A stretch of 50,686 nt of DNA from Sphingobacteriales bacterium (GCA_021297855.1 JAJTHM010000009.1:1-50686), one strand, 5' to 3'. Shown: positions 5,481 through 48,648, counted from the first letter of the stretch. Notes: a model not told the origin generated them from the letters alone. Made by a program: numbers and translations.

Positions 5481-6863
5481 ATGAATACACTCCTCATACT
5501 CTCTTATCTTATAGGCTCAGTCACATTCGTGGTAGGTCTAAAAATGCTTAGCCACCCAGATACGGCTCGAAAAGGGAATCTCGTAGCCGCTTTTGGTATG
5601 CTAATTGCTATTCTAGCTACCATATTTCTTTATGGACATCATGGGGATGATTATTCTACGAAGCTTCTCTGGATTTTCGGTGGTATAGCTATAGGTACAA
5701 TTGCTGGATGGATAACTGCCATGCGAGTTGAAATGACGAAAATGCCTGAGCTAGTATGTTTGTTTAATGGAATGGGTGGTGCTTGTGCTGCCTTGATTGG
5801 CTTGATGGAATATGGTGCCAATGTCGGAAATACCATGAGTTTGGCGACCATAATAGCTGGTATGATTATTGGTTCTATTTCTTTTTCAGGTTCTATAGTG
5901 GCCTTCCTTAAATTGAATGGCACAATGAATAAGCCGATTCGTTTGCCATATTATAATATAATCAATTCGATTGTTATGGTAAGCGTCATTGCTATGGCTG
6001 TATGGGTAGTGATGACAGGTCAGCCAGAATCTATGGCATATGCCCTCTTCGGTTTAGCGGTAATCTATGGACTGCTTTTTGTCTTCCCTATCGGTGGAGC
6101 GGATATGCCCGTTGTTATTTCTTTGCTAAATTCATTTACAGGCTTAGCGGCCGCATTCGGAGGATTTCTATATGATAATCAAGTTATGCTAACAGGGGGT
6201 ATCCTTGTGGGTTCGGCAGGAACTATTTTGACTTTAGCTATGTGTAAAGCGATGAATCGACCATTGTCCAATGTTATTTTTGGAGCATTTGGAGGTGGTG
6301 CAGCAGGTGGTGCAGGGCAAGATATTGAGGGTAGCATCAAGGATATTTCTATTTATGACACTGCTGTATTATGCAACTATGCCAATAAAGTAACAATAGT
6401 TCCAGGTTATGGCCTTGCAGTAGCTCAGGCACAGCACATCATTCACGAATTGGAAAAAACATTGGAGGCGAATGGCGTGGAAGTGAAATATGCTATTCAC
6501 CCGGTGGCAGGTCGTATGCCAGGTCACATGAACGTGCTTTTAGCAGAATCTAATGTAGCCTATGAAAAATTAGTGGAGATGGATGATATCAATCCAGAAT
6601 TTCCAAATACAGACGTGGTTATCGTCGTAGGTGCAAATGATGTGGTAAACCCAGCAGCGAAGACAGACCCATCCTCTCCTATTTTCGGTATGCCTATTTT
6701 AGATGTAGAACAGGCCAAGCACATCATAGTCAATAAGCGTTCGATGAATGCAGGTTATGCGGGCATCGACAACCACCTCTTTTACAATCCTAAAACATCT
6801 ATGCTATTTGGTGATGCGAAGGATGTGCTGACTAAGTTGGTGGCGGAGTTGAAGGCGATGTAA
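5481..6863 (+). CDS. pntB: NAD(P) transhydrogenase subunit beta
   Basis: This is the beta subunit of the proton-translocating transhydrogenase, with multiple membrane helices in the first two-thirds and the soluble NADP(H)-binding domain III at the C-terminus. The 460-residue length is normal. The NADP domain shows VPGYGLAVAQAQH, then HPVAGRMPGHMNVLLAE, VVIVVGANDVVNPAA and GYAGIDNHLF, all diagnostic for PntB. It completes the pntAA-pntAB-pntB operon and probably provides NADPH for biosynthesis. The 103-base gap to pntAB is AT-rich without an evident separate promoter. Confidence 0.96.
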   Translation: MNTLLILSYLIGSVTFVVGLKMLSHPDTARKGNLVAAFGMLIAILATIFLYGHHGDDYSTKLLWIFGGIAIGTIAGWITAMRVEMTKMPELVCLFNGMGGACAALIGLMEYGANVGNTMSLATIIAGMIIGSISFSGSIVAFLKLNGTMNKPIRLPYYNIINSIVMVSVIAMAVWVVMTGQPESMAYALFGLAVIYGLLFVFPIGGADMPVVISLLNSFTGLAAAFGGFLYDNQVMLTGGILVGSAGTILTLAMCKAMNRPLSNVIFGAFGGGAAGGAGQDIEGSIKDISIYDTAVLCNYANKVTIVPGYGLAVAQAQHIIHELEKTLEANGVEVKYAIHPVAGRMPGHMNVLLAESNVAYEKLVEMDDINPEFPNTDVVIVVGANDVVNPAAKTDPSSPIFGMPILDVEQAKHIIVNKRSMNAGYAGIDNHLFYNPKTSMLFGDAKDVLTKLVAELKAM

Positions 6864-7020
6864 GAAATAGTTTAAAGTAGAAAGGAAAAAGTTAAAAGTC
6901 TGAACAACTAATGTTTAGGTTTTTTGTTATTTTACATTAAGTCTTGTAATTATGAATCATTAAAATTATAGCTACTTGAGAAAGTGTAGCTTGTTAAAAA
7001 AATCCGTGTAAAATCTAAAT

Positions 7021-7514
7021 ATGAAACCAATTGAAGTAAAATTCAGTGTACAACTTATATATATTTTTTTGTTTTTTTTATATAGCTGTAATTTAATAGA
7101 AGAGCGAAACTTAGCAACTAATAAAACTGTTAGGACATCGTGCAATTGCGATAGTCTACAAAAAGAAGTGATCTATAATAGAAGTGTTAATGCATATTCA
7201 AGTATCATTACTAACAGTATCTATGATAAACCAGATGTAGTATCTGATATTTTTGTTTCGCAAAAGATTTGCTGAAGGAAATGCTTCAGCTTGCTTTAAT
7301 TGTTATAGCGCATACAGTTATTATGTATTCGGCAATAATGAATAGTATCTTGAAGAAAATTTTTATATAAAGGATAGTTTTAATGATGTGTTACTATCTT
7401 ATTAAGTCATTTGAGTTAGACTCTACAGTTGCCGATGCTATTGTTAAACATAGATTTAATAAAAAATTGCCTAAATCAGATAGCCTGTATCTACAAATCT
7501 CTAGACTTAAATAA
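7021..7514 (+). pseudogene. Decayed lipoprotein gene (two frameshifts and an in-frame stop)
   Basis: An open frame from 7021 gives an 84-residue product with a lipoprotein-type N-terminus (hydrophobic stretch then FLYSCN) and stops at 7273. A coding-like sequence continues in the +1 frame from about 7268 (FAEGNASACFNCYSAYSYY), meets a TAG at 7343, resumes in the same frame (YLEENFYIKDSF) and then in the third frame from about 7389 (CYYLIKSFELDS to SLYLQISRLK), ending with TAA at 7512-7514. Joined together these would make roughly 160 residues. The family is not recognised. Three separate lesions in a short stretch favour genuine decay over a single sequencing error. Confidence 0.55.
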
Positions 7515-40965: not shown

Positions 40966-41640
40966 TTAATAAAATCTCCGTTTATCTTTGTTTATATATT
41001 TTGTCAGTACATACCCTGTAATAATCCCTCCTAGGTGGGCAAAGTGCGCCACATTATCGCCTTGAAAATTTGCCAAACCTAGAATTATACTAATAGTAAC
41101 TGCTGCTATTAATAAATATTTTGCTTTGATAGGAAAAGGGATGAAAAAAACAAAGAATTCTGAATTGGGAAACAGCAGAGCTACGGCTGCAAAAAGCCCA
41201 AAGACCGCACCTGAAGCGCCTACTGCCGGTGTCCCCACAATATGTCCTACCACATCTAATTCCTCATTGCTTGGAATAAAATGCCCTATTTCATTCCATA
41301 CCATAACTGCTTGAATCGCCATATAAAAAAAACTAGCTCCTAGGCCACAAATAAGGTAGAAATTCAACACTCGTTTTGCACCCCAGTAGCGCTCTAATAG
41401 ACTACCAATCGAAAAAAGTGAGATCATGTTAAAAGCTAAATGCGCTATACTCGCATGCATAAAAAAATGCGTAAAAAACTGATATGGTTGAAAATATGGG
41501 TGAGAGAAATAGTATAAAGCTAATTTTTCATTTAACCTGAACCCAATATTGGGAAATAACTCAGGAAGCATAAATCCCGCCAGAAATAAAACTACATTGA
41601 TGATAATCAAATTCTTGACAGTAGGTGTTAAATTATTCAT
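40966..41640 (-). CDS. Rhomboid intramembrane serine protease
   Basis: A 224-residue six-helix intramembrane protease. The catalytic serine is in GASGAVFG (Ser143), the catalytic His is in AHFAHLGG (His202), and the oxyanion-type HLAFN motif is in helix 2 (His67, Asn71). It cleaves single-pass membrane proteins; substrates cannot be predicted. Its start overlaps the mutL stop by eight bases and it is followed closely by the EEP gene. There is no N-terminal zinc-ribbon. Confidence 0.92.
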   Translation of the reverse strand: MNNLTPTVKNLIIINVVLFLAGFMLPELFPNIGFRLNEKLALYYFSHPYFQPYQFFTHFFMHASIAHLAFNMISLFSIGSLLERYWGAKRVLNFYLICGLGASFFYMAIQAVMVWNEIGHFIPSNEELDVVGHIVGTPAVGASGAVFGLFAAVALLFPNSEFFVFFIPFPIKAKYLLIAAVTISIILGLANFQGDNVAHFAHLGGIITGYVLTKYINKDKRRFY

Positions 41641-43465
41641 GAAAATATTTTTCTATTTCTTGATAAGGAAGGGTATAATAAATCGGTTTGCCACTGGGTG
41701 TGGTTTGAAAATTTTCTCGCTGAAATATATGCAAAGACAAGTAATCAACCTCTTCTGAAGTCAAGCTCTGACTGCGTTTGACGCTTGATATTTTACATAT
41801 GGCAATAAGTAGTGTCTCTTTTTTCGAATTTTTCGCTTTAAAGTTGTTCTTAAAATTTTCAACCAATTCAACCAAAAGTTCTTTTTCATTCCCACTTGGT
41901 AAATCTGCCGGTATGCCCTGTATGGCAAAAACCTGATTGCCCATTGGGCTAATGTCAAATCCCAAATGCTGCAAATCGGTCATAATCTCCTCGAGTACGA
42001 AACTATCTTGGATTGAAAAATCAACGCAAATGGGAAACAGTAATCGCTGACTCGCTATTTTTTCTTTTAACGATAGACGAAGCATCTCATCAAATAAAAT
42101 ACGCTCATGGGCTCTTCGCTGGTCGAGTAAAAGTAGCCCTTGATTGGTCGGCAAAACAATATACTTACTCAGTATTTGTGTAGGTTTACCTACTATTTCT
42201 ATTTCTTGTTTTTTAAAGGGGAGCTCATCAATATTTTCCTGATTTCTATCTATACTTTTTAACTCCCCAGAATAATATTCTTCTTGCAGCGACTGGGAGA
42301 AAATGGCCTCCCAGTTCTTTTCGTTTTGCTTGGCAAAGGTAAATCCTGCACGACCATTGCTTGTGGAGCTAGTATTGGTTATTTCCACGCCCTTTTTCAT
42401 AGCACTCGGATTGGCTACTGCATCCATGTTATGAAATACGCTATCTATACTGAAATCAATTGAAGGCGCTATATTAAACTGCATGAGCGAACGCCGAATA
42501 CTTGCATTGACAAAACCATAAATTAGCTGCTCATCTTCAAATTTTATTTCTTGCTTGGTGGGATGCACATTGATATCTATCAGCCTCGGATCAATGTCAA
42601 TGAAGATGACATAGTAAGGGAAATCCCCTGGTTGAATCAATTCTTTGTATGCTGAATAAATAGCATGCTGAATATACTGACTTTTGATAAATCGCTTATT
42701 GACATAAAGGTATTGCTTGCCTTTCGATTTAGAATTTGCGGCATTTGGTTTACATACAAATCCATACACTTTTAAAATATCCGTCTCTTCCTCAATGGGT
42801 ACAAATTTTTCATTATAGCTCTTGCCAAAAATATCCGTAATTCTGCCCAGGGTACTAGCAGGCAAGAGTCGGTAAAGCTCATTATCATTGTGATATAGCG
42901 AAAATTCAATGGCTGGATAGGCTATAGCCAATCGACTAAATTCAGCTATGATGAGCGACATTTCTTGCGTATCCGATTTCAAAAAATTCCGGCGAGCAGG
43001 CACATTATAGAAAAGATTTTTCATGGAGAAATGCGTTCCCTGAGGCAAGCTTATGGGTTCTTGACTCACCACTTGACTATTTTCTATCACTATTTTGGTA
43101 CCATACTCATCTATATCGCGCTTTGTTTTCATCTCTACCTGAGATACGGCCGCTATAGAAGCCAGTGCTTCTCCTCGAAAGCCATTGGAGTGTATTTTAA
43201 ACAAATCATCAATGGTACGTATTTTAGAAGTGGCGTGTTTTTCAAAACAAAGTCGGGCATCCGTTACACTCATCCCTAGTCCATTGTCTATGACCTGAAT
43301 CAATGACTTTCCTGCTTCTTTGACTATAAGTGAAATCTTAGTTGCCTTCGCGTCAATAGCATTTTCGATCAACTCCTTGACTGCACTGGCTGGGCGCTGA
43401 ATCACCTCACCCGCAGCTATTTGGTTGGAAATATGGTCGGGAAGAAGTTGAATTATGTCTTGCAT
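41633..43465 (-). CDS. mutL: DNA mismatch repair protein MutL
   Basis: A 610-residue mismatch-repair ATPase. N-terminal GHKL motifs are complete: QIAAGEVIQRPASAVKELIE, DNGLGMS and FRGEALASIAAVS. The C-terminal dimerisation domain shows DQRRAHERILFDE at about 446-458 where endonuclease-type MutL has DQHA(x)2E(x)4E; the His is Arg, and the usual CPHGRP near the end is TPSGKP, so endonuclease activity is doubtful. The ATG at 43465 (MQDIIQLLPD) is the conserved family start; the frame extends upstream only by chance. A rhomboid gene overlaps its end. No mutS is nearby. Confidence 0.95.
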   Translation of the reverse strand: MQDIIQLLPDHISNQIAAGEVIQRPASAVKELIENAIDAKATKISLIVKEAGKSLIQVIDNGLGMSVTDARLCFEKHATSKIRTIDDLFKIHSNGFRGEALASIAAVSQVEMKTKRDIDEYGTKIVIENSQVVSQEPISLPQGTHFSMKNLFYNVPARRNFLKSDTQEMSLIIAEFSRLAIAYPAIEFSLYHNDNELYRLLPASTLGRITDIFGKSYNEKFVPIEEETDILKVYGFVCKPNAANSKSKGKQYLYVNKRFIKSQYIQHAIYSAYKELIQPGDFPYYVIFIDIDPRLIDINVHPTKQEIKFEDEQLIYGFVNASIRRSLMQFNIAPSIDFSIDSVFHNMDAVANPSAMKKGVEITNTSSTSNGRAGFTFAKQNEKNWEAIFSQSLQEEYYSGELKSIDRNQENIDELPFKKQEIEIVGKPTQILSKYIVLPTNQGLLLLDQRRAHERILFDEMLRLSLKEKIASQRLLFPICVDFSIQDSFVLEEIMTDLQHLGFDISPMGNQVFAIQGIPADLPSGNEKELLVELVENFKNNFKAKNSKKETLLIAICKISSVKRSQSLTSEEVDYLSLHIFQRENFQTTPSGKPIYYTLPYQEIEKYFHE

Positions 43466-43518
43466 GATAAAAAATTGAGCGTTAGATATTACCCTCAATT
43501 TCATTTTAATTTCTTAAA

Positions 43519-43526
43519 CAAAAATA
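43519..43526 (-). promoter_or_regulatory. Bacteroidota -7 element for mutL
   Basis: The minus strand reads TATTTTTG, an exact TAnnTTTG, about 54 bases before the mutL ATG, just after the rhodanese gene stop. Confidence 0.45.
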
Positions 43527-43530
43527 AGAA

Positions 43531-43839
43531 TTATTCCCTAGTTCCTTGCCAATTCATCATTCCGCCTTTAAGGTTATAGACATTGTCAAAACCTTGAGAT
43601 TGAAGAAATAGGCAAGCTTGCATACTTCTATTGCCGCTACGGCAGATAAAAAGATAGGATTTTTCAGGGTCTAGCTGATCGAAATTGTCATGAAACTCAC
43701 CACTATTCCAGTCATAACCTATCTCAGCTTGGGGTATTTTACCTTCTTCTATTTCGGCTTGACTGCGTACGTCGATCGGAATGACACCCTCTGATATCAG
43801 CTTATTAAACTCCTCTACCGTTGAAATTTCTTTTAGCAT
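43531..43839 (-). CDS. Single-domain rhodanese-like protein
   Basis: A 102-residue rhodanese domain. The active-site loop is CRSGNRS with Cys66, and the strand-helix order (PIDVRSQAEIEEGKIPQAE, then YLFICRSGNRSM, then LKGGMMNW) is standard. Such proteins carry persulphide or act as sulphurtransferases or redox sensors in the cytoplasm. It follows the zinc peptidase gene by ten bases and is probably co-transcribed with it. Confidence 0.92.
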   Translation of the reverse strand: MLKEISTVEEFNKLISEGVIPIDVRSQAEIEEGKIPQAEIGYDWNSGEFHDNFDQLDPEKSYLFICRSGNRSMQACLFLQSQGFDNVYNLKGGMMNWQGTRE

Positions 43840-43849
43840 AATCTAGAAT

Positions 43850-44521
43850 TTAGCCTCTTCTATTATTAAGAATAGATAGATAGTATAGTAAATTAAGCAC
43901 GGAAGCCACTGCATTGACAACATAGGTCATGGCTGCCCACTTCAAACCATCTTTGGCCTTATCGTAGGTTTCTCCCTGCATTCCCTTGGTATCGAGCCAA
44001 GCCAACGCTCGATTTGATGCATCAAATTCCACAGGAAGGGTGACTAGCGCAAATAAAGTAGTTAAGCCATAAAGAGCGATACCGATAATCAAGGGAAACG
44101 TAATTCCCGAGCGCAATAAAAGAAAACCTCCCATGATGACGAATGGCATAATCTTATTGGTAATGTTGAGGACAGGGACTAATTGACTCCTAAATCCTAA
44201 CATACTGTACGCTGTAGCGTGTTGAACTGCATGTCCACACTCATGAGCGGATACTGCTGCCGCCGTTATGCTATTCGATTCGTAAACTAACTCAGAGAGA
44301 TTGACCGTCTTATCCGTAGGGTTGTAATGATCGGTCAATTGTCCAGGTGTACTAATCACTTTTACATCAAATATACCGTTCTCTTTGAGCATTTTCTCGG
44401 CTATTTCCTTTCCAGTCAATCCCAAGGGATTCACCTCTTGTGAATAGCTGTTCATTTTGTTCTTCAACATCATTTGAATGATGAAGCCGGCACCCATGGC
44501 CAAAATAATTAATATTGTCAT
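43850..44521 (-). CDS. Membrane neutral zinc metallopeptidase
   Basis: A 223-residue membrane protease of the Zn_peptidase_2 (YugP-like) family. The zinc motif is HECGH (His93, Glu94, His97). An N-terminal hydrophobic helix (1-18) and two or three more membrane segments (about 120-170 and 200-216) flank the soluble part, and LPVEFDASNRALAWL is a second family signature. Substrates are unknown. It is upstream of the rhodanese gene on the same strand. Confidence 0.9.
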   Translation of the reverse strand: MTILIILAMGAGFIIQMMLKNKMNSYSQEVNPLGLTGKEIAEKMLKENGIFDVKVISTPGQLTDHYNPTDKTVNLSELVYESNSITAAAVSAHECGHAVQHATAYSMLGFRSQLVPVLNITNKIMPFVIMGGFLLLRSGITFPLIIGIALYGLTTLFALVTLPVEFDASNRALAWLDTKGMQGETYDKAKDGLKWAAMTYVVNAVASVLNLLYYLSILNNRRG

Positions 44522-44591
44522 ATATCTTATCTTATTATTTGACCTAATAACATAGCATACCCCGAAATGGTTTCAAAAAAAAACTTAACAA

Positions 44592-44948
44592 TTAATTATC
44601 TGGACCACATGCGTCTACCCAAGACTTGACCTTAGTCAAAATACTGTCTGGAAGCTTAGTGGCAGATTTCGGCATAGAACCGCTAGCCATTACAGTATAA
44701 AAATGTCCATGGTCAACGGCTTCCTTCACGCCTGCATGGGTAGTAAATTGATGACCTCCTGCATTACTTGCTACACTATGGCATCCCGAACTATTGCATG
44801 ATGTGGTCATTAATGGGGCGATGAAACTTTTGTATGAAACCGTTGTAGTCATAGTTGACGTGCAAGGATTATGGCTATGGTCGTCTTTAGAACAACTTAA
44901 TACAGTTATTAAAACTATTACTAGAGTAAAATAGGTGATTTTGCTCAT
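44592..44948 (-). CDS. Cytochrome c-like lipoprotein with a CX4CH motif (paralogue A)
   Basis: A 118-residue lipoprotein (lipobox VLSC, Cys19) with a class-I-cytochrome-like layout: CNSSGCH at 51-57, then ASGSMPK with Met92 as possible second haem ligand, then an amphipathic helix ending KVKSWVDACGPDN. The haem motif has four residues between the cysteines (CX4CH) instead of two. An extra Cys near the C-terminus may pair with Cys29. The open frame starts at a TTG (44963), but the ATG at 44948 begins a standard lipoprotein signal and is preferred. It is the last gene of the YceI-DUF5777 cluster. Confidence 0.7.
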   Translation of the reverse strand: MSKITYFTLVIVLITVLSCSKDDHSHNPCTSTMTTTVSYKSFIAPLMTTSCNSSGCHSVASNAGGHQFTTHAGVKEAVDHGHFYTVMASGSMPKSATKLPDSILTKVKSWVDACGPDN

Positions 44949-45014
44949 ATGTTTAAATTTCAAGTTGGTGACTAGATTATGTTTTTAATTTGGGCACGTG
45001 AAATATCCCTAAGA

Positions 45015-45350
45015 TTAATTATTAGGAGAACACGCATCTATCCATGAAAATAATTTATTTCTTTCATCCGTAGTAAGAGCGGGAGATCCTGCGGGTGGCA
45101 TTGAATTATTATTTACTTTGGTTCTAATGTTGGAACTTTTGTCTTTTACAGTATTGTAATTAGTTAAATTCAAGCCTCCTGCTGCACTCGAATTATGGCA
45201 TCCACTAGTATTGCATTTATTATTTAGTACGACACTGATATCGGTAGTATACTTATAGGTGGTAGTGCCACAGTTTGATGTAGTATCTTTCGTACAACTT
45301 AAAACTGTAATTAAAGTGACCATACCAATAACAAGAAACGCTTTTTTCAT
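45015..45350 (-). CDS. Cytochrome c-like lipoprotein with a CX4CH motif (paralogue B)
   Basis: A 111-residue lipoprotein (lipobox VLSC, Cys19) paralogous to the next gene. It has CNTSGCH at 46-52, SMPPAGSPALT with Met84, and the closing helix LFSWIDACSPNN. The MPP-x-LT-x-E-x-W-I pattern matches the C-terminal half of small c-type cytochromes, supporting haem binding by His52 and Met84 despite the CX4CH spacing. It lies between the DUF5777 barrel gene and paralogue A. It probably faces the periplasm or cell surface from the outer membrane. Confidence 0.7.
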   Translation of the reverse strand: MKKAFLVIGMVTLITVLSCTKDTTSNCGTTTYKYTTDISVVLNNKCNTSGCHNSSAAGGLNLTNYNTVKDKSSNIRTKVNNNSMPPAGSPALTTDERNKLFSWIDACSPNN

Positions 45351-45372
45351 ACTTTATAAATTTAGAAGTTAA

Positions 45373-46305
45373 TTATTTATCTTTGATAATAGTAAATACT
45401 CTAGAAATATTAAACCCAAATCTAACCTGACCTGCTGTAAATTTAGCAGTGTTATTTGGTAAAAACTGGCTCTCCATCAATCCGGTATTAGTGCTAAACA
45501 GGGCATGGAATACGTGACCTCCTGTTTCGAGTTCAAATCCAAGTCCAATGGGCATTTGATGTCCAATCAATTTCTGAAAATTACTGACATTTAGAACCTG
45601 ATAATAATCTGCAATAATTGCGGCACGCTTACTTATCTTGAATCTGGCACCAGCTGCTATAGCGAAATGGGTATTGTTGTCTCCTAAAAATACAAGATTT
45701 CTATGAACTATGGTAGGCGCAATGATAAATGAAAATTGATCATTCATTTTTCTAGCAATCAATATCTGACCAAAATAATTAAAACGATGCGCGGTACTTC
45801 GATTGAAATTATTAATATCCGATAAGACGCCAGAAGATTGCATCGAAGTAAACGTCAAACCTCCAAACAGGGATATGGCTAGAGGAAATCCATTCTTCTT
45901 TTGTTGGGCCAATTTAAACTTCGAATTTAAATCAAAGACCTGAGAAGTACTATATCCACCTTTACTTCTACCTATTCCTATCTGCCATACGTCGAAAATA
46001 CCATAGTCGAAAGAAAACCGTATGTCGGAGACATTATCAAATCCAAAAAAAGTAGAAGCGCCTCCTGCACTACCTGCAATATCTCCAAATCTATGGGCTA
46101 TACGGAAATCTAACTCACCTCTTTTCACTTGTTCTATTGTCGTCAAATTAATTAAACGGGTAGTCTTGAAACTGGCTATAACTTTGTCATCAATCGTAGA
46201 ATCTGTTTGACTATTGACTAAACTAGCCAATTCATCGTCTTGAGCTGCAAGGCGCATACCTAATAACAGAATACCTGATAATAGAATAATCTTAAAGCAA
46301 TTCAT
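45373..46305 (-). CDS. DUF5777-family outer-membrane beta-barrel protein
   Basis: A 310-residue protein with a signal peptide (MNCFKIILLSGILLLGMRLAAQ), an acidic linker and then an all-beta barrel. The sequence TTRLINLTTIEQVKRGELDFRIAHRFGDIA, GFDNVSDIRFSFDYGIFD and the terminal GQVRFGFNISRVFTI are characteristic of DUF5777. The ATG at 46305 follows the upstream YceI stop by four bases and starts the signal peptide; the longer frame to 46353 overlaps that YceI gene. The function of DUF5777 is unknown; the neighbours suggest a redox or lipid-binding complex. Confidence 0.82.
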   Translation of the reverse strand: MNCFKIILLSGILLLGMRLAAQDDELASLVNSQTDSTIDDKVIASFKTTRLINLTTIEQVKRGELDFRIAHRFGDIAGSAGGASTFFGFDNVSDIRFSFDYGIFDVWQIGIGRSKGGYSTSQVFDLNSKFKLAQQKKNGFPLAISLFGGLTFTSMQSSGVLSDINNFNRSTAHRFNYFGQILIARKMNDQFSFIIAPTIVHRNLVFLGDNNTHFAIAAGARFKISKRAAIIADYYQVLNVSNFQKLIGHQMPIGLGFELETGGHVFHALFSTNTGLMESQFLPNNTAKFTAGQVRFGFNISRVFTIIKDK

Positions 46306-46309
46306 ATAT

Positions 46310-46870
46310 TTATTTTTTACTAGGTTTAAACTCTGCGAGTATAGCAATTTCAATTTCTTCGGCTATGTTTTTAACCACCAATTTGGGTATTTCGATATTA
46401 TAATCAGCACACTTGACTTTGAAACTTGACTTTCCTATCACGCCTTTATTTGAAACAATGATAGTAGCTGGAATCACAACTTCTCTTTTCACTCCATGAA
46501 TGGTGAGCGTTCCTTTGAGGCTCACCTGACTGGTACCATTGACATTGAAATTTGGCAAATCCTGAATAATTCCATCAAAATCTGCAGTAGGAAACTTATC
46601 CGATTCTAGATAGTTTTCGTTGAAGTGCTCCTGCATCAATTTTCTTGGAAAAACGAAACTTTTAATTTGAATTTTCACAAGTATTTTTGCTGTCTTTTCA
46701 TTCAAGGCAGCAACTCCTGTCTCCGTTTTGGCTTCAATATCTTCCATGGGAGTTTCCGAAAAGAGTTTTACGGTTACATTCTTCGATAACCATATTTGTC
46801 CATAACTCAATCCTGGCGATAAGCCTAACAGAAAAATACCAATAATGATTGTCCCTCTTATACTAAACAT
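46310..46870 (-). CDS. YceI-family periplasmic protein (copy 2)
   Basis: A 186-residue lipocalin-like YceI protein with a signal peptide ending LSPGLSYGQ. Family features are the strand pattern ETGVAALNEKTAKILVKIQIKSF, LMQEHFNENYLESDKFPTADFDGII and the late strands GTLTIHGVKREVVIPATI. YceI proteins bind long isoprenoid lipids, including quinones, in the periplasm. It is a close paralogue of the gene just upstream, and the DUF5777 gene follows after four bases. GTG at 46876 is an alternative start two codons earlier. Confidence 0.9.
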   Translation of the reverse strand: MFSIRGTIIIGIFLLGLSPGLSYGQIWLSKNVTVKLFSETPMEDIEAKTETGVAALNEKTAKILVKIQIKSFVFPRKLMQEHFNENYLESDKFPTADFDGIIQDLPNFNVNGTSQVSLKGTLTIHGVKREVVIPATIIVSNKGVIGKSSFKVKCADYNIEIPKLVVKNIAEEIEIAILAEFKPSKK

Positions 46871-46916
46871 TTTCACCTTAGATTTTGTAATTGTCGATGG
46901 GTATGATTAAATAAAA

Positions 46917-47465
46917 TTAGGACTTGGCAGTAAAATTAGCCAATATTGTTACCTCTATGTTGTCCGAAATATTCTTGCGTGTGATTGACGGTATTTTTAT
47001 ATTATGATCTTGGCAAGGTACAAGAAATATTGACTTTGCTTCTATTTTTCCATTTGTCACTCTAAAGGTTGCCTTAATATCTCTTGGTACTTTGGTGGCA
47101 TGCAATAACAAGCTCCCTTTGATCATTAACTCATAATTTCCATCTTTGGTAAAATCTGGTATATTTTGGATAATTCCATCAAACTCTGCACTCGGATACT
47201 TATCTGACTCTATATAATTTTCATTAAAATGTTCTTCCATAAGCGCTTTTTCAAATTTAAAAGACTTCATCATCACTTTAAAAAAAATACGACCCGTTTT
47301 TGTGTTTAAGGCTCCCGCAGCATAGTTGCTCGCTGCCTCGATATCTTCTAAAGGGGTTTTAGAAAAAAACCGGATTTTGGCATTTTTTGACAGCCAAACC
47401 TGTGCCTGTGCATTCGAAGAAGCTATAGCAATAACTAAAATAATTATTTTAAGTATAATTTTCAA
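46917..47465 (-). CDS. YceI-family periplasmic protein (copy 1)
   Basis: A 182-residue YceI lipocalin-like protein with a signal peptide ending SSNAQAQ. It shares with copy 2 the segments VWLSKNAKIRFF, LMEEHFNENYIESDKYPSAEFDGII and the late strand block, so the pair arose by duplication. The open frame begins at a TTG at 47486, but this TTG is part of an exact TAnnTTTG element (47484-47491); I therefore choose the TTG at 47465, which still gives a complete signal peptide. It is the first gene of the five-gene cluster. Confidence 0.88.
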   Translation of the reverse strand: MKIILKIIILVIAIASSNAQAQVWLSKNAKIRFFSKTPLEDIEAASNYAAGALNTKTGRIFFKVMMKSFKFEKALMEEHFNENYIESDKYPSAEFDGIIQNIPDFTKDGNYELMIKGSLLLHATKVPRDIKATFRVTNGKIEAKSIFLVPCQDHNIKIPSITRKNISDNIEVTILANFTAKS

Positions 47466-47483
47466 TTTTTCAATTTTAAATAC

Positions 47484-47491
47484 CAAATGTA
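47484..47491 (-). promoter_or_regulatory. Bacteroidota -7 element for the YceI-DUF5777-cytochrome cluster
   Basis: The minus strand reads TACATTTG, an exact TAnnTTTG, overlapping the first possible TTG codon and about 20 bases before the preferred start at 47465. Confidence 0.5.
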
Positions 47492-47514
47492 GTCCAATTT
47501 ATGTTTGCGAGAAA

Positions 47515-48648
47515 CTAATATTTGTTAACCTTTGATAAAACTATATATCCTAAAATAGCTGAGATTGTGGAGGCAAGAAGTATAGCCAATTTCGATTGGT
47601 TAACGAGATGGACATCGTCAAATGCTAAAAATGAAACGAAAATAGACATAGTAAATCCTATGCCACCGAGACAACCCGCACCTAGAATATGTTTCCAACA
47701 AACGGAGGATGATAATTTAGACCAACCCAAAGAGACCACGAAAAACGAAAATAACATTATACCAAGAGGTTTACCGAGCACCAAACCCAGAATAATTCCC
47801 AGATCTAAGGAACTTGAAATAGTCGCCAAAGAAAATTTCTCAATCACAAAAGCGGTGTTGGCCAAGGCAAAAATGGGTATGATAAACAAGGCGACAGGAA
47901 AATGTAAAAATTTCTCTAATTTATTGGAAATGCTTTTCTCGTCCCCACTACCAAAAGGAATAACAAAAGCTAGCAGAACTCCACTGATAGACGCGTGAAC
48001 TCCCGACTTCAGCATACAGAACCATAAAAATAGTCCACCAACAAGATAAGGCCATAGTAGATATACTTTTTTTCTATTCAAGGTAAAAAGAAAAAGCATG
48101 ATAGCAGCGGCACCAATTAGATACTGCCATGACACCGTCTTTGTATAAAATATTGCTATTATTATGATAGCCCCAAGATCATCAATCACTGCTAAGGCTG
48201 TCAAGAAAACTTTAAGTGCGAGAGGCACACGATTGCCGAGTAGCGATAAAATGCCTAAAGCAAAGGCGATATCTGTGGCCATAGGTATGCCTACACCAGA
48301 CTGACTGACCTGACCTCTATTAATAAAAAAGAAAATAAATGCTGGCATTATCATGCCGCCCAATGCAGCACTAAACGGCAAAAGAGCTTCTTTAAAATTA
48401 GAAAGTTCTCCATTGTACACTTCTCGCTCTAGTTCTAATCCGACCATGAGAAAGAATATGGCCATTAAACCATCATTTATCCAATGCTCAAGAGACATTC
48501 CCCCAATATTCATATGCCAGAGAGCCATATAATCATGACCAATTAGCGAGTTAGAAATCCCTAAGGAAAATATAGTACAGCCAATTAGTATCAGTCCTGC
48601 TGATTTCTCACTCTCAAAAAAATTAGTAAATAGTTTTGTGATACGCAT
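47515..48648 (-). CDS. nhaA: Na+/H+ antiporter NhaA
   Basis: A 377-residue inner-membrane antiporter that exchanges protons for sodium to regulate pH and salinity. Diagnostic segments are TDIAFALGIL and AVIDDLGAIIIIA, the latter holding the paired Asp that bind Na+ (equivalent to Asp163/164), with MVGLELEREVY in the N-terminal domain and GCLGGIGFTMSIFVSFLAF near the end. Its length is normal. It is monocistronic; no nhaR-type regulator adjoins. Confidence 0.97.
   Translation of the reverse strand: MRITKLFTNFFESEKSAGLILIGCTIFSLGISNSLIGHDYMALWHMNIGGMSLEHWINDGLMAIFFLMVGLELEREVYNGELSNFKEALLPFSAALGGMIMPAFIFFFINRGQVSQSGVGIPMATDIAFALGILSLLGNRVPLALKVFLTALAVIDDLGAIIIIAIFYTKTVSWQYLIGAAAIMLFLFTLNRKKVYLLWPYLVGGLFLWFCMLKSGVHASISGVLLAFVIPFGSGDEKSISNKLEKFLHFPVALFIIPIFALANTAFVIEKFSLATISSSLDLGIILGLVLGKPLGIMLFSFFVVSLGWSKLSSSVCWKHILGAGCLGGIGFTMSIFVSFLAFDDVHLVNQSKLAILLASTISAILGYIVLSKVNKY

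Follow-up and report, generated by a model that had tools for sequence, protein, structure and literature searches.

The five minus-strand genes at 44592-47486 of the window, the whole stretch of 50,686 nucleotides from a Sphingobacteriales bacterium that was analysed here, are one copy of a gene set that is conserved across Bacteroidota and constitutes a redox module of the outer envelope. Its parts are a YceI lipocalin, lipoproteins with haem motifs or Rieske proteins, and an outer-membrane β-barrel of the DUF5777 family. We put the probability at about 0.5 that a YceI quinone carrier, the redox lipoproteins and the DUF5777 barrel together pass electrons to an acceptor in the outer membrane or at the cell surface. 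The first-pass annotation of the window had proposed a redox function of this kind, and the theme has been strengthened by the exchange of cytochromes for Rieske proteins, by a fusion of a cytochrome domain with DUF5777, and by haem-motif neighbours that carry sorting domains of the T9SS type. The literature searched, including combinations of YceI with Bacteroidetes or Flavobacteria and cytochrome, yielded no description of the module or of DUF5777. In the following, labels such as L002 or L119 refer to loci read around the genes in sampled genomes.

All five open reading frames that had been claimed for the cluster were found; they are listed here together with a putative promoter element:

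46917-47486, minus strand: YceI-A, an exported YceI lipocalin, lineage-specific second copy (PF04264, E 3.3e-8)
46310-46876, minus strand: YceI-B, the conserved YceI of the module, directly before DUF5777 (PF04264, E 8.1e-17)
45373-46305, minus strand: DUF5777 outer-membrane β-barrel, the core of the module (PF19089, E 3.6e-78)
45015-45350, minus strand: Cyt-lipo1, predicted monohaem cytochrome c lipoprotein with CX4CH (CNTSGCH) and SMPP (family alignment)
44592-44963, minus strand: Cyt-lipo2, lipoprotein with CX4CH (CNSSGCH), SMPK and the mature N-terminus C-S-K-D-D-H (family alignment, LES match)
47484-47491, minus strand: TACATTTG, a -7-like element at the head of the cluster, not significant alone

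The gene identities hold up under profile searches: both YceI proteins, which are 50% identical to each other, pass the PF04264 cut-off of 23.7 bits (62.4 and 34.5 bits), and the DUF5777 protein scores 262.7 bits against a PF19089 cut-off of 23.1, covering profile positions 1-247. The two lipoproteins possess the lipoboxes (...VLSC), the CX4CH motifs and the downstream Met described for them (CNTSGCH...SMPP and CNSSGCH...SMPK), this Met being a candidate distal haem ligand, and, at 39% mutual identity, they are paralogs. The proposed promoter fared less well. TACATTTG is present, but it lacks the TTTG at -33, and the two-part pattern is not above chance, with 2 occurrences seen in the window against 2.3 expected. 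Because TACATTTG overlaps the TTG start of YceI-A at 47486, this protein may instead start at the TTG at 47465. Likewise, the five genes do not form a cluster of their own on this strand, as the same-strand run extends beyond them on both sides: a gene for NhaA ends 28 bp upstream, and the downstream genes encode a zinc peptidase, a rhodanese and MutL. The order NhaA-YceI-DUF5777-cytochrome-cytochrome-zinc peptidase-rhodanese-MutL (window 41633-48648) is retained in L002 and L003, and the module may therefore share transcription with housekeeping genes in the lineage of the window.

DUF5777 is present in 220 of the 247 genomes sampled from the class to which the window belongs and in 82 of the 198 genomes of a phylum-wide sample, where it extends to other classes of the phylum; it was found in none of 14 control genomes, one of them a Bacteroides. 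To gauge the conservation of its neighbourhood, which had been set beforehand as the test on which the proposal could fail, the surroundings of 99 DUF5777 genes were read, in 96 genomes that represent 80 genera and 48 families. The arrangement is kept across the sampled families. Of these 99 loci, 92 encode a cytochrome c lipoprotein or a Rieske protein at a distance of up to 3.5 kb and 72 encode YceI at up to 3 kb, in each case on the strand of DUF5777, and 69 encode both, percentages that may be overstated since most of the loci were chosen among the DUF5777 matches with the highest scores. The median gap between YceI and DUF5777 is 2.5 bp, with less than 60 bp in 65 of the 72 cases, and YceI matches fall off abruptly with distance from DUF5777, from 75 at less than 2 kb to one at 2-4 kb and one at 4-6 kb. 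A search of the complete genome of the window, which missed the weaker YceI-A, recovered just two YceI genes, of which one belongs to the cluster, so that adjacency by chance would have a probability far below 1%.

Elsewhere, the genes usually run from a two-motif lipoprotein through a one-motif lipoprotein and an OB-fold protein (PF12869) to YceI and DUF5777, whereas in the lineage of the window the lipoproteins sit downstream of DUF5777. The OB-fold protein, of the ‘tRNA_anti-like’ type, is encoded close to the module in 29 loci (e.g. L037:5295-5729), often between the cytochromes and YceI. The association also holds in named genomes: the order is Rieske-DUF5777-YceI-cytochrome c in Emticicia oligotrophica, and a haem-motif lipoprotein, annotated as ‘hypothetical protein’, precedes YceI in Hymenobacter and Persicobacter. 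The double YceI of the window is a local duplication outside the module core, because its close relatives L002, L003 and L004 and nearly all other loci have a single YceI; that of L002 is 61% identical to YceI-B and 47% to YceI-A. YceI proteins bind isoprenoids, with ubiquinone-8 found in some structures (PMC9113575, PMC8981238), and a sequence search of the PDB returned weak YceI matches for YceI-B.

The assignment of the two lipoproteins rests on a family alignment, since neither reaches a Pfam cut-off: no Pfam cytochrome model scored above its cut-off in either of them, the closest being Cytochrome_CBB3 on Cyt-lipo1 (19.5 bits against a cut-off of 27, E 0.0012), and none matched Cyt-lipo2. 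In an alignment of 71 homologous sequences, CXXCH and CX4CH of single-motif members occupy one column, and the aligned haem motif is followed by MP and by W-I-x-x-G-A-x-N-N. As the two spacings exchange at one aligned site, CX4CH represents the haem site by homology, and the window lipoproteins are predicted monohaem c-type cytochromes. Published surveys likewise include CX4CH among the haem sites (PMC5566968). Among 124 module cytochromes, the motifs are spaced as CXXCH in 85 cases, CX4CH in 62 and CX3CH in 3, and Met-Pro or Met-Ala follows the last haem motif in 121. Longer relatives score far above Pfam cut-offs, for example that of L103 with 66.4 bits for PSCyt1. In an AF2 model of Cyt-lipo1 (pLDDT 66), the helices are positioned as in class I cytochromes; the best match of the cytochrome model in VIA-align was a weak one to cytochrome c peroxidase (Z 4.9), and Foldseek gave no significant match for it. 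At the place of Cyt-lipo1, L002:10955-11305 and L003:5747-6097 have LSPP for SMPP and thus no Met, and the sixth haem ligand of these cytochromes may differ. Module cytochromes are often labelled ‘hypothetical protein’ in annotations, probably because short CX4CH domains score below profile cut-offs. A two-motif cytochrome adjoins DUF5777 in seven loci. The neighbourhood of the module is occasionally suggestive in itself: at L036:9384-12809 it lies beside a caa3-type oxidase (COX2-cytochrome c, COX1) and at L121:6907-10449 beside a gene set of the 4Fe-4S ferredoxin type, which hints at links with respiration.

For DUF5777, a domain of about 250 residues, the barrel assignment rests on Pfam, since a test for alternating hydrophobicity was not clearly above shuffled columns (0.33 of sequence windows, against a null mean of 0.22 and a null maximum of 0.36). 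Across 81 sequences, H71, H264, F73, F266, G88, G297, F298 and R302 are invariant. A sequence search of the PDB found no match, profile and PDB sequence searches gave no known enzyme family, and an AF2 model from four sequences (pLDDT 31) was kept out of fold searches. In seven loci, a Rieske protein adjoins DUF5777, mostly instead of the cytochrome. A Rieske protein can thus stand in for the cytochrome or accompany it; the two proteins differ in their chemistry but would have the same one-electron role. In L119, a Bacteroidota genome outside the class of the window, a CX4CH cytochrome domain and DUF5777 (PF19089, residues 171-418, E 1.5e-44) are united in one protein of 421 residues with a C-terminal Phe (6072-7337, minus strand), whose gene is adjoined by that of a second CX4CH lipoprotein. 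Given this fusion, contact between the haem protein and the DUF5777 barrel is likely.

Some of the redox proteins bear marks of the cell surface. The surface-export signal of lipoproteins (LES) is C-X-K-(D/E)2 at the mature N-terminus (PMC5080379); the mature end of Cyt-lipo2, C-S-K-D-D-H, matches C-X-K-(D/E)2-X exactly, while that of Cyt-lipo1, CTKDTT, fails the pattern. This strict signal is confined to Cyt-lipo2 and its two close orthologs in L002 and L003, and in most of the other module cytochromes the end is rich in acidic residues, as in CYYDNEEELYP, and only LES-like. In nine loci, a minority (L035:3301-4128, L039, L128, L135, L148, L152, L155, L111:6997-8631 and L113), a nearby gene on the same strand encodes a CXXCH, CX3CH or CX4CH protein that ends in a C-terminal sorting domain of the T9SS type, an assignment for which the profile test covered some of the nine. 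Their single haem motif is close to the N-terminus, and the sorting domain is of the Reeler/choice-of-anchor V or the Temptin_C type. Among the matches listed, choice_anch_V lies within 5 kb of DUF5777 in 6 of 155 cases, against 0.58 expected (P 3e-5), so that chance co-location is rejected. With choice_anch_V in 172 of the 247 genomes of the window's class, the T9SS-sorted haem-motif proteins seem to form a class of secreted monohaem proteins that is widespread.

The mechanism we consider would run as follows. Most likely, the lipid held by the periplasmic lipocalin YceI is menaquinone, an isoprenoid quinone, or something similar; YceI would carry it across the periplasm and exchange electrons with haem or Rieske lipoproteins anchored in the outer membrane, assuming that the former are loaded with haem. 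DUF5777 would then dock the lipoproteins and hand the electrons to an acceptor that lies either in the outer membrane or on it, if it conducts them and if they flow in this direction; in some genomes, a surface cytochrome secreted by the T9SS is probably part of the acceptor side. The barrels of Cyc2 and MtrB have 16 and 26 strands, respectively. DUF5777 is smaller than either, and a cytochrome may not fit inside, so that an insertion in the style of Mtr is doubtful and docking likelier than the threading of a cytochrome through the barrel.

By analogy, the module would combine the workings of a YceI-redox pair with those of a split, minimal cytochrome-porin, but judging from its sequences it is no member of the BcnA-LcoA, Cyc2 or MtrCAB systems. 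With BcnA-LcoA (PMC9113575) it shares a YceI lipocalin gene beside a dedicated envelope redox partner; there, however, the partner is an inner-membrane cytochrome b561, whereas here it consists of lipoproteins with c-type haem motifs or Rieske proteins and an outer-membrane barrel, and there is no cytochrome b561 gene among the window neighbours of YceI (NhaA, DUF5777, the lipoproteins, the zinc peptidase). Like Cyc2 (PMC8406198), the L119 fusion has an N-terminal domain of the monohaem type followed by an outer-membrane barrel, but the barrel family is PF19089, the motif is CX4CH, the genes are mostly separate and YceI is joined to them. The signature AXPXFAR[Q/K][T/Y] upstream of CXXCH, which marks Cyc2 with its fused porin (PMC8406198), is absent from the window proteins and from the L119 fusion. 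MtrCAB and MtoAB also combine a barrel with cytochromes at the outer membrane, but theirs are a 26-stranded barrel and decahaem cytochromes, compared here with a small barrel and with lipoproteins whose haem motifs number one to three (one in each window lipoprotein), and no homology to the module was detected. Finally, Cbp2D and Cbp2E of Cellvibrio japonicus (PMC8981238) likewise link a YceI-like quinone-binding domain to a c-type cytochrome, but as a single secreted multidomain protein with a cellulose-binding module and no barrel.

The main rival to electron transfer towards the surface is an antioxidant function, which we regard as possible but rather doubtful. In this case, peroxyl radicals of outer-membrane lipids would be quenched by a reduced quinone on YceI; re-reduction of the quinone would fall to the haem or Rieske lipoproteins, and DUF5777 would give access to the lipids, making the module the Bacteroidota counterpart of BcnA-LcoA. 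In both systems the YceI gene adjoins a redox partner, and bcnA or lcoA mutants show raised lipid peroxidation (PMC9113575). The absence of DUF5777 from the 14 control genomes, Bacteroides included, fits this explanation, as does the fact that, among the matches listed for the phylum sample, no genome lacking COX1 has DUF5777, a weak argument given that COX1 is nearly universal (189 of 198). Yet no cytochrome b561 was encountered next to the module, either in the window or in the named loci with annotation, and T9SS surface cytochromes and neighbours with two haem motifs are unexpected for a purely protective system.

It appears unlikely that the module serves lipid chemistry, with DUF5777 as a transporter or an outer-membrane lipid enzyme, YceI as a lipid chaperone and cytochromes that power a step such as isoprenoid or lipid oxidation, and no conduit at all. 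The two invariant His and the invariant Arg of DUF5777 suggest a specific site over a plain pore, and isoprenoid binding by YceI would agree with this, but DUF5777 matches no known enzyme family and the neighbourhoods that were read show no recurrent biosynthetic gene. Quite improbable, to our mind, is a supply of electrons to secreted oxidative enzymes. It has been proposed, with LPMOs as the recipients, for YceI-cytochrome proteins such as Cbp2D: there, a YceI-like domain that binds UQ-8 is united with c-type cytochrome domains, and LPMOs are reduced by one of these (PMC8981238). T9SS-sorted redox proteins do adjoin the module in some genomes; however, no extracellular oxidase recurs near it in the loci read, and any single enzyme of this kind is probably much rarer than the module. 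That the genes are mere neighbours with no joint function is hardly credible: in the window they do lie amid unrelated housekeeping genes (NhaA, MutL), but they are conserved over many families despite changing surroundings, nearly overlap, and have been fused.

Electron transfer to the outer membrane or surface is thus the reading we prefer. Tentatively, it might amount to a new phylum-wide route across the outer membrane, in which a periplasmic quinone shuttle on the lipocalin, monohaem or Rieske lipoproteins and a small dedicated barrel would co-operate, with surface lipoproteins or T9SS-secreted cytochromes at the end of the route and with parts unrelated to those of Mtr, Cyc2 and other porin-cytochromes. 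The DUF5777 module is widespread, occurring in most sampled Bacteroidia and in other classes, and appears to be without a described function. Bacteroidota are major polymer degraders in seas and soils; if electrons do pass to the outer membrane or the surface, a redox output at the cell surface would be widespread among these bacteria.
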